Below are positions 19,286 through 24,381 of a stretch of 55,142 nt of DNA, piece after piece; within the stretch, counting starts at the first letter, position 1, and each line of letters opens with the position of its first letter. The notes beneath the pieces are model-generated. The model was given only the letters and a program-made list of their open reading frames with translations, had not been told where the DNA came from and did no database searches. The position numbers and the translations under genes are program-made. The stretch is from Candidatus Gottesmanbacteria bacterium RIFCSPHIGHO2_02_FULL_39_11 (GTDB lineage Bacteria; Patescibacteriota; Microgenomatia; 2-02-FULL-39-11): contig MFJL01000041.1 in NCBI GenBank assembly GCA_001779195.1, forward strand, positions 80,881 to 136,022. Reading direction: 5' to 3'.

Positions 19286-20056
19286 ATGAACTCAAAAAAA
19301 AATACAAAAGAAAAAGTTATTGTTGTAATGCCGGCGTATAATGCGGAAAAAACACTTGAAAAAACATACAGAGACATCCCTAAAAATACCGTCAGTGAAG
19401 TAATTGTAGTTGATGATGAGAGTCATGATGCAACCGTTGCCGTTGCCAGAAAGCTCAGGATTCCCGTATTTGTTCATAAAAAAAACTTAGGGTACGGAGG
19501 AAATCAAAAGACATGTTATGAGGAGGCACTTAACCGAAATGGGGATATCATAGTAATGATTCATCCAGATTATCAGTATGATGCCACTCTCACCTCTCAC
19601 TTAATTAAGCCAATTCTGGAGGGACGGTTTGATATTATGCTTGGGAGCCGTATACGAACCAGGAAAGAGGCTCTTACGGGAGGAATGCCTTTGTATAAAT
19701 ACATCAGTAACCGCTTCTTAACGGTTTTGGAAAATATTTTTTTGGGTCTTAATCTGTCTGAGTATCACACCGGATTTAGAGCATTTGACCGGAATGTTTT
19801 AAAAAATCTCCCCTTAAAAAATTTTTCAAACGATTTTGTCTTTGATCAGGAAATTTTAATCTCAGCCCACGCTGCAGGATTTAGGATTGGAGAAATCCCG
19901 GTACCGGTACGCTACTTTCCCGAGGCATCCTCAATTAATTTTTTCCGTTCGAGCATTTACGGTCTTATGATAATGAAATTGCTATTTTTATATATTCTTT
20001 ATACAGTTGGCATTAGAAGCAAAATATTTTCCACTTTCCGCTATGAAAAAGATTGA
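19286..20056 (+). CDS. GT2 glycosyltransferase, dolichyl-phosphate mannose synthase-like
   Basis: 'KVIVVMPAYNAEKTLEKTYRDIP', 'VIVVDDESHD', 'MIHPDYQYDA', 'LGSRI'. Confidence 0.9.
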   Translation: MNSKKNTKEKVIVVMPAYNAEKTLEKTYRDIPKNTVSEVIVVDDESHDATVAVARKLRIPVFVHKKNLGYGGNQKTCYEEALNRNGDIIVMIHPDYQYDATLTSHLIKPILEGRFDIMLGSRIRTRKEALTGGMPLYKYISNRFLTVLENIFLGLNLSEYHTGFRAFDRNVLKNLPLKNFSNDFVFDQEILISAHAAGFRIGEIPVPVRYFPEASSINFFRSSIYGLMIMKLLFLYILYTVGIRSKIFSTFRYEKD

Positions 20057-21761
20057 CATTATTATTTGTCTTTTGATATGCATTCTTACTTTTCTTACTC
20101 TTCGCGATCTGTATAAACCCTTTTTTTATACAAGTCATGACGGTCAGAACCAAATTGTACGGCTGTATTATTTTGATGAGGCTTTGAGAGACGGCCAGTT
20201 TCCTCCCCGGATTGCGGGGGGCCTCTTAAACGGATACAGCTATCCTCTGTTTGTCTTTTCCTACCATATGCCCTGGATTATTGCAGAGCCTTTTTATTTG
20301 ATAACTCGCGACATTTTTGCTTCAATAAAATTCAGCTTCATTCTGGGCTATTTCTTATCGGGTCTTACCATGTATTGGTATTTAAAACGGGTATTCGGAA
20401 GATTTCCTTCTGCTGTCGGGACTTTCTTATATCTCTTTGCTCCCTACCGTTTCGTAAATATATTTGTAAGAGCCGCGATCGGAGATGCAACCTCTTTTAT
20501 TTTTCCTCCTCTTATTTTTTTATCTCTGTATGAACTGACCAAATTTGATAAGTTAGACAGGATGTTTAAAACCGGAGCAAAGTGGATTGTAGTAGGGGCA
20601 ATCGGAATTGCTGGACTTATTTTATCCCATGCGATGGTTTTTGCATTATTTGGCCTATTCTATTTTTTATATTTATTATGGAATTTGGTTTTTACCCGCA
20701 ATAAGAAAAATACTCTTATTGGATTTATTGTAGTACTAATTCTAGGAGTAGCATTATCCGGTTATTATTTTATTCCGTCTTTTTTTGAGAGAGACTATAC
20801 TCAATTTTCCTCAGTTATGAGAAGCATATTTACCGGAAGTACATTTATTCCCTTTAAACAACTTGTCTATTCGCCGTGGGGGTATGGAATGATGAGAGCT
20901 GAGGAGGGCGGAATGAGTTTTCAAGTAGGTATTGCCCAATGGGGAGTTGCCGTATTTACAGTATTAATACTAATTAAGTGGTTAATTAGTAAAAAAAATA
21001 AGAGGGAATATTCTGCATACAGTCTTGGTTTTTACTTTATGATTACATTTATACTTAGCGTTTTAGCTATGCTTCCGGTATCACTTTTCGTCTGGAAACT
21101 TCTGGGCAATATTATAATTATTGATTTTACCTGGAGAATTTTGACAGTCACCGTTTTTTCTTCTTCTGTTTTAGGAGCATTTGCTGTATCTAAAATAAAG
21201 TTTAAATATTTAGTTGGGGTGTTAATTATTTTGGTCGCATTATACGCCAATAGAAATTATTTAAGAATTAATAAAATCCAGGGCTGGGATGTGCCCTTTT
21301 ATCTTAAACTTGAGAAAACTACCAACATGTATGATGAATATACTCCCCAGTGGGTGCAGAGGGAAATTGAAAAAGTTCCCATCCTAGAAAAAATTGGATA
21401 TAGTTCCAAAAGTGTAATAACGGATATAAAGGTAAATTCATCTAATCATTTTTTGGCAGATGTCACAACCTCCCAAAATACAGAGGCAACTCTTAACACT
21501 ATCTATTATCCGGGGTGGGAACTTTTTGTGAATAATATAAAGTCCCCGATTGAGTATAAAAACAGCAGGGGACTAATGAGCTTTTCGCTTCCAAAAGGAA
21601 AGAATACTGTTGAGTTTAAATTCACCGAGACTCCTCTAAGATTAATATCAGATATTATCACAATATTAGCCGGTATGATATCATTATGGGCTGTTATTTC
21701 TTCTTTCAGAATAAAACATAATGAAATTAAGCATGATTTACCAAATAAATCGTCATCCTGA
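20043..21761 (+). CDS. Polytopic membrane protein, YfhO/6-pyruvoyl-tetrahydropterin-synthase-related membrane family (start re-assigned from 20007)
   Basis: 'HDGQNQIVRLYYFDEALRDGQFPPRIAGGLLNGYSYPLFVFSYHMPW'; multiple TM; C-terminal beta-rich tail. Confidence 0.65.
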   Translation: MKKIDIIICLLICILTFLTLRDLYKPFFYTSHDGQNQIVRLYYFDEALRDGQFPPRIAGGLLNGYSYPLFVFSYHMPWIIAEPFYLITRDIFASIKFSFILGYFLSGLTMYWYLKRVFGRFPSAVGTFLYLFAPYRFVNIFVRAAIGDATSFIFPPLIFLSLYELTKFDKLDRMFKTGAKWIVVGAIGIAGLILSHAMVFALFGLFYFLYLLWNLVFTRNKKNTLIGFIVVLILGVALSGYYFIPSFFERDYTQFSSVMRSIFTGSTFIPFKQLVYSPWGYGMMRAEEGGMSFQVGIAQWGVAVFTVLILIKWLISKKNKREYSAYSLGFYFMITFILSVLAMLPVSLFVWKLLGNIIIIDFTWRILTVTVFSSSVLGAFAVSKIKFKYLVGVLIILVALYANRNYLRINKIQGWDVPFYLKLEKTTNMYDEYTPQWVQREIEKVPILEKIGYSSKSVITDIKVNSSNHFLADVTTSQNTEATLNTIYYPGWELFVNNIKSPIEYKNSRGLMSFSLPKGKNTVEFKFTETPLRLISDIITILAGMISLWAVISSFRIKHNEIKHDLPNKSSS

Positions 21762-21818
21762 ACTTGTTTCAGGATCCAGAAGCTAAAACACTGGATCCCG
21801 GGTCAAGCCCGGGATGAC
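21752..21818. repeat. Compound palindromic repeat element (nested hairpins)
   Basis: gtcatcctgaacttgtttcaggatccag-aagctaaaaca-ctggatcccgggtcaagcccgggatgac; outer arms gtcatcc/ggatgac and ggatccag/ctggatcc; inner hairpins cctgaa..ttcagg and cccggg..cccggg. Confidence 0.85.
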
Positions 21819-23550: not shown

Positions 23551-24381
23551 ATGAAATTGTCTGTAGCCCTAGCAACTTATAATGAAGAAGAGAATATTGC
23601 GAGATGTCTAAACAGCATTTCGGGATGGGCAGATGAAATTGTGATTGTTGATGGGAAATCAAATGACAAGACGGTTGATATAGCCAAAAAATATAATGCC
23701 CGGATAATTTTAAAAGAAAACGAAGAAAATTTTCACAAAAATAAGCAGATAGCAATCGAAAACTGCAAAGGAGAATGGATCTTACAGCTGGATGCGGATG
23801 AGGAAGTGACTAACAACTTAAAAGATGAGATCCTTAAAGTTGTTAGTCATCCTGAGCGACCGAAGGGAGTCGAAGGATCCCGTGTGGAACCTGTTTCCGG
23901 TTACTGGATTCCCCGAAAAAACTACTTTTTAGGAAAATTCTTAAAAAAAGGAGGACAGTATCCGGATTACACATTGAGACTTTACCGAAGGGGAAAGGGA
24001 AAACTTCCTGCTCTAAATGTTCATGAGCAGGCAGAGGTCGCGGGGAAAACAGAGTATCTTAAAAACCCTCTTCTTCATTATAATTATCCTGATCTTAAGC
24101 ACTATTTTGATCATTTTAAAAGATACACAGATATTTTTGCAAATGAAATAATTGATGAGAATTATAAAGAAAAAAGTCGTCATCCTGAGCGACCGAAGGG
24201 AGTCGAAGGATCCCGTTTTCTTTCTTATATGCTTATAAAGCCTTTTACATGGTTTATATCGACATACATTCGCCATAAAGGATTTATGGATGGGTATCAG
24301 GGATTTTTATTTTCCTTTTTTTCATCTCTTCGCTTTCCAGTCTCCTATATTAAAGCATTGAAAATAAACTATAAGAAATGA
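23551..24381 (+). CDS. GT2 glycosyltransferase (WaaE/KdtX-like) carrying two in-frame repeat insertions
   Basis: 'LSVALATYNEEENIARCLNSISGWADEIVIVDGKSNDKTVDIAKKY', 'WILQLDADEEV', 'HEQAEV'; HPERPKGVEGSR occurs twice. Confidence 0.9.
   Translation: MKLSVALATYNEEENIARCLNSISGWADEIVIVDGKSNDKTVDIAKKYNARIILKENEENFHKNKQIAIENCKGEWILQLDADEEVTNNLKDEILKVVSHPERPKGVEGSRVEPVSGYWIPRKNYFLGKFLKKGGQYPDYTLRLYRRGKGKLPALNVHEQAEVAGKTEYLKNPLLHYNYPDLKHYFDHFKRYTDIFANEIIDENYKEKSRHPERPKGVEGSRFLSYMLIKPFTWFISTYIRHKGFMDGYQGFLFSFFSSLRFPVSYIKALKINYKK
23846..23883. repeat. 38-bp hairpin-forming repeat, copy A, in frame inside GT2 CDS
   Basis: gtcatcctgagcgaccgaagggagtcgaaggatcccgt; identical to copy at 24179. Confidence 0.95.
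24179..24216. repeat. 38-bp hairpin-forming repeat, copy B, in frame inside GT2 CDS
   Basis: gtcatcctgagcgaccgaagggagtcgaaggatcccgt; identical to copy at 23846. Confidence 0.95.

Follow-up and report, generated by a model that had tools for sequence, protein, structure and literature searches.

A dispersed palindromic repeat in a Patescibacteria genome and its probable double in-frame insertion into a glycosyltransferase gene

About 75 units of a short palindromic repeat are scattered through this small bacterial genome, and a GT2 glycosyltransferase gene carries the repeat twice within its reading frame. We assign a probability of about 0.88 to the reading that the 39-bp unit in this gene is a monomer of a dispersed CGTC-tagged REP family, which inserted twice into GT2 and stayed in frame. 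The features concerned, all located in the window (the whole stretch of 55,142 nucleotides that was analysed), are listed in Table 1.

Table 1. Repeat units in the window and the gene that carries two of them.
Feature	Position	Strand	Evidence
GT2 glycosyltransferase ORF, both insertions inside	23551..24381	+	ORF call, 276 aa; PF00535, E 1.4e-21; orthologues at most 65% identical in relatives
Probable REP insertion 1	23845..23883	+	AGTC + hairpin + CCCGT, 39 bp; residues 99-111, SHPERPKGVEGSR; without counterpart in 37 homologues
Probable REP insertion 2	24178..24216	+	CGTC + hairpin + CCCGT, 39 bp; residues 210-222, RHPERPKGVEGSR; absent from homologues, which mostly have 30 residues at this site; net gain 11
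Third REP in the window, wider family, second type GTCATCCTGAACTTGTTTCAGGATC	21752..21776	+	G000:C41:102632-102656

The window contains two identical copies of a 38-mer, at 23846-23883 and 24179-24216, and no third; shuffled sequences would give none. The two copies lie 333 bp apart on the same strand. As the preliminary description had it, they share one reading frame, that of an ORF that remains open. The register-keeping unit is nevertheless 39 bp rather than 38, as a codon count shows that the base preceding each 38-mer shares its codon (AGT CAT CCT ... CGT in insertion 1, CGT CAT CCT ... CGT in insertion 2). Each NGTC-hairpin-CCCGT unit is translated as 13 whole codons, (S/R)HPERPKGVEGSR, and because it is 39 bp long and stop-free in that frame, GT2 stayed open and gained 13 codons per insertion. 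Both units are monomers, not inverted dimers. The hairpin described earlier has real arms (outer ATCCT/AGGAT, inner CGAC/GTCG) and is weaker than an ideal palindrome, with a predicted -9 to -13 kcal/mol as RNA; its predicted stem consists of an outer helix of 5 bp and an inner helix of 4-5 bp, and 8-9 bp are reached only in total. The third REP of the window lies outside the GT2 gene and provides the TGA at which the upstream ORF 20007-21761 stops.

The encoded protein is a GT2 enzyme by Pfam assignment; the more specific WaaE/KdtX label was not sustained, as no NCBIfam model passed its cut-off. Both peptides are missing in all 37 GT2 homologues compared, which come from 37 related genomes and of which the 29 best are 45-65% identical. 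From these orthologues, whose identity is about 60% or lower, we infer that both peptides are clean insertions and not conserved parts of the fold, as had been proposed. At the first site, the segment measures 13-50 residues across homologues and 26 in the window's GT2, and by the family pattern it would follow the helix behind the DxD region and precede the strand GYWIPR. At the second, just before IKPFTWF, most homologues have exactly 30 residues and the window's GT2 has 41. Judged from these alignments, site 1 is probably a loop naturally variable in length, while site 2 has an otherwise nearly constant length. The net gain at site 2 is 11 residues rather than 13, which implies either that the 39 bp entered an ancestor with a somewhat shorter segment or that two codons were lost.

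One clade of homologues (L113-L120) has a loop of 43-50 residues near LFLRHQxLxxxRDG, at the place of insertion 1. A check of these long orthologue loops for REP units gave none, and the segment is unrelated and lineage-specific. Since some homologues thus have their own unrelated long loop there, site 1 appears permissive. The placement of the insertions in loops follows from length variation among homologues, because the single-sequence AlphaFold model of GT2 is too poor (pLDDT 43) to position them; PDB homologues cover only about residues 1-100 and so do not place the insertions.

With up to three mismatches, the 38-mer core occurs in the genome only inside this GT2 gene, and on its own it is therefore not a high-copy repeat. 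The recurrence anticipated for the 38-mer is instead a property of its family. An arms-only pattern, TCATCCTGAG..AAGGAT, finds 18 units in the genome, and the wider pattern GTCATYCTGA..RGRATC finds 76 matches against 0 for the reversed-pattern control. In the 75 units listed from stretches taken around the wider-pattern matches, the base before GTC is mostly t or c. The arms read ATCCTGA/AAGGAT or ATTCTGA/AAGAAT (in general ATYCT..AGRAT), and the variable arm base faces its complement in 51 of the 52 distinct units (T-A in 26, C-G in 25), the remaining one being T-G. Unit centres vary from about 7 to 26 nt and are often self-complementary; their mean folding energy is -4.5 kcal/mol, compared with -1.6 kcal/mol when shuffled, with p<0.05 in 17 of 49. 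Most units end in a CCCGT tail, which is CC-rich and not CCA. About 19 convergent pairs with spacers of 22-26 bp usually combine one C-arm and one T-arm unit, and units of the second type, GTCATCCTGAACTTGTTTCAGGATC, are mostly single.

These properties can be set beside those of the CGTC-tagged REPs, CGTC-1 to CGTC-4, defined by Di Nocera et al. in 2013 (PMC3733652). According to that report, one end of these elements is an unpaired tag, CGTC (or TGTC/CCTC); they have an 8-9 bp stem that opens with complementary AT, a typical loop of 4-5 bases and a short unpaired tail, mostly CCA; inverted dimers predominate. The same text lists loops that differ in length and composition in some species, so that a loop of 4-5 bases is not strictly defining. 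It describes the elements as mostly intergenic, with some intragenic in frame and tilted towards repair genes, gives R. conorii uvrB and O. terrae uvrA as genes with two insertions, reports no linked transposase genes, and counts two Rickettsia palindromes as members (RPE-4 as CGTC-4, RPE-6 as CGTC-1).

Measured against this account, the family described here shares the NGTC tag, the AT-first stem, a tail that resembles theirs in being rich in CC, inverted dimers that join unlike arms across spacers of 20-odd bp, a mostly intergenic location with some in-frame intragenic units that sometimes occur twice per gene, and a lack of linkage to transposase genes (Y1_Tnp in our case). The tag itself is CGTC at GT2 site 2 and AGTC at site 1. 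It differs in its ATYCTGA stem, in having CCCGT rather than CCA as a tail, and in variable, often palindromic centres about 7-26 nt long, where the typical published loop has 4-5 bases. The hosts named in the available part of PMC3733652 do not include Patescibacteria. By these features, the family appears to match the CGTC-tagged REPs and yet to be a distinct, additional member of them. Like RPE-4, RPE-6 and RPE-1 of Rickettsia, for which the same source gives in-frame palindromes in many genes including two in uvrB (PMC3733652), it enters coding sequence; unlike them in sequence and host, it has units of about 25-45 bp. With REPINs and the GTAG REPs associated with RAYT (PMC3116915, PMC2817692) it has in common short tagged hairpins, inverted pairs and genome-wide spread, the tag being NGTC and not GTAG. 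The repeat does not fit a MITE with 15-30 bp TIRs and target-site duplication: the GT2 unit is a single 39-bp hairpin, and no duplicated target is seen in its flanks. The suggestion of a selfish or MITE-like repeat survives as a mobile-type repeat family, of the CGTC-tagged REP kind and without the TIRs of a MITE. In the collection of papers searched, none contained the characteristic translated peptides (ILKQVQDD, HAEFISAS, SLRMT and similar), and none surfaced for these repeats in Patescibacteria.

About a dozen genes in the genome carry REP units. In LepA, 24 residues stand in frame in place of 1; TopA has an in-frame pair at residues 379-419, YchF also carries the repeat in frame, and RsmI has in-frame units at two places. 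Further in-frame units occur in TatD (280 residues against a 253-position profile), SpoU (173 against 142 positions), DegT and a second GT2, and several membrane proteins are candidate hosts. Together with the family itself, these in-frame copies in other genes support the original idea of a tolerated, RPE-like palindromic insertion. A preferred phase or orientation, also raised at that stage, is a weak proposal: intragenic units occur on both strands and in several frames, VIL and GIL/DPS among them, and other units are intergenic. The HxE frame is mildly overrepresented, being used in 11 of the 13 forward entries (p=0.02, tallied by hand). This bias requires no special mechanism, since of the other two frames VIL gives a more hydrophobic peptide and the third contains TGA; the excess may simply reflect the more hydrophilic peptide. 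In three further loci (L008, L019 and L020, oriented 1501-1530), units just 5' of genes stay open and lengthen the N-terminus of the ORF, for instance that of a UvrC-like ORF in L008. Such units probably cause start codons to be misannotated.

Of the 59 genomes in the relatives set, this one included, 33 contain family units, with a maximum of 95 per genome, and the reversed-pattern control gave 1 match in total over those 59 genomes. The maximum belongs to G054, a genome of 0.5 Mb with many close convergent pairs and the densest REP load among the genomes examined. The core of the GT2 copies, with at most one mismatch, is restricted to 2 of 380 genomes of the phylum, this one and G016. The G016 copy is read in frame as HPERPKGVEGS in uvrA, a gene identified above the NCBIfam cut-off. 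This uvrA (L122:2-2530) contains two REP insertions, one a single unit and one a pair, and resembles the O. terrae uvrA described in 2013 (PMC3733652). The exact 38-mer was also found in two named GTDB genomes of Actinobacteria, Gordonibacter (L056:4021-4058) and Eggerthella (L057:6358-6395). The Gordonibacter copy lies in frame within the gene of an Lhr-like helicase, so named from its sequence, and yields the peptide HPERPKGVEGSR; in Eggerthella it lies immediately upstream of an ORF or at its start. Four of the five exact core copies found in the two phyla are intragenic and in frame with the same peptide (GT2 twice, UvrA and the Lhr-like helicase). The identity with Gordonibacter and Eggerthella suggests either transfer from one phylum to the other or a strongly constrained sequence.

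This recurrence of the same DNA and peptide could mean that the GT2 peptides are functional and selected for their sequence, with the palindrome incidental. We consider this very improbable: the proteins that bear the peptide are unrelated, the 37 GT2 homologues do without it, and elsewhere the family is intergenic or lies in other frames and on other strands. Another reading, that this version of the REP is kept since it is translatable, its HPERPKGVEGS(R) frame encoding a surface peptide that does no harm or is of use, would account for identical DNA giving one peptide in genes that are unrelated and come from two phyla; it is a long shot, if a slightly better one, and if true it would mean that a mobile repeat is selected at the level of the peptide. 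A different question is whether local copying or gene conversion inside the gene, instead of two independent insertions from elsewhere, produced the two GT2 copies. Their 38 identical bases on the same strand, 333 bp apart, with a centre otherwise absent from the genome at up to three mismatches, would fit such copying. Plain tandem duplication is excluded, since the flanks of the copies share nothing beyond the unit, and a source copy could sit in the approximately 8% of the genome that is not assembled; we place local copying at somewhat less than even odds.

Mobilization by a RAYT/Y1 transposase of the REPtron type, as for GTAG REPs, seems unlikely, though it has some points in its favor. 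This genome has five Y1_Tnp genes, a masked relative of the repeat lies close to the Y1 gene of L006, and over 59 genomes the numbers of Y1 genes and units are weakly correlated (rho 0.30, p 0.02, phylogeny ignored). The association test, which took in the Y1_Tnp class only (33 loci), found 2 units in the flanks of these genes where 3.75 were expected; in the own genome, no Y1_Tnp gene is flanked by a REP apart from one masked partial match. In G052, 39 units occur although no Y1 gene was detected, G033 and G056 lack units despite their 18 and 13 Y1 genes, respectively, and linkage to a transposase is likewise missing in the published CGTC REPs (PMC3733652). For the preferred reading of a dispersed REP inserted twice, we propose that a unit with an NGTC tag, an ATCCTGA/AAGGAT-arm hairpin and a CCCGT tail entered the GT2 gene twice on the same strand, probably moving as single-stranded hairpin DNA, and that the insertions fell where GT2 tolerates extra residues. 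Out-of-frame insertions would have been eliminated by selection. As their centre is found nowhere else in the genome, one GT2 copy probably derived from the other, or both from one recent source.

In-frame insertion of palindromes is already known from Rickettsia and a few other bacteria; here it also occurs inside many core genes of a Patescibacteria (CPR) genome. Protein-coding palindromes, best known from Rickettsia, are thereby extended to a small genome of this phylum, whose many natural in-frame insertions can be used to study how proteins accommodate foreign segments. The finding also sharpens the question, raised in the literature, of what mobilizes CGTC REPs, as Y1 transposases are present here yet unlinked to the repeat.
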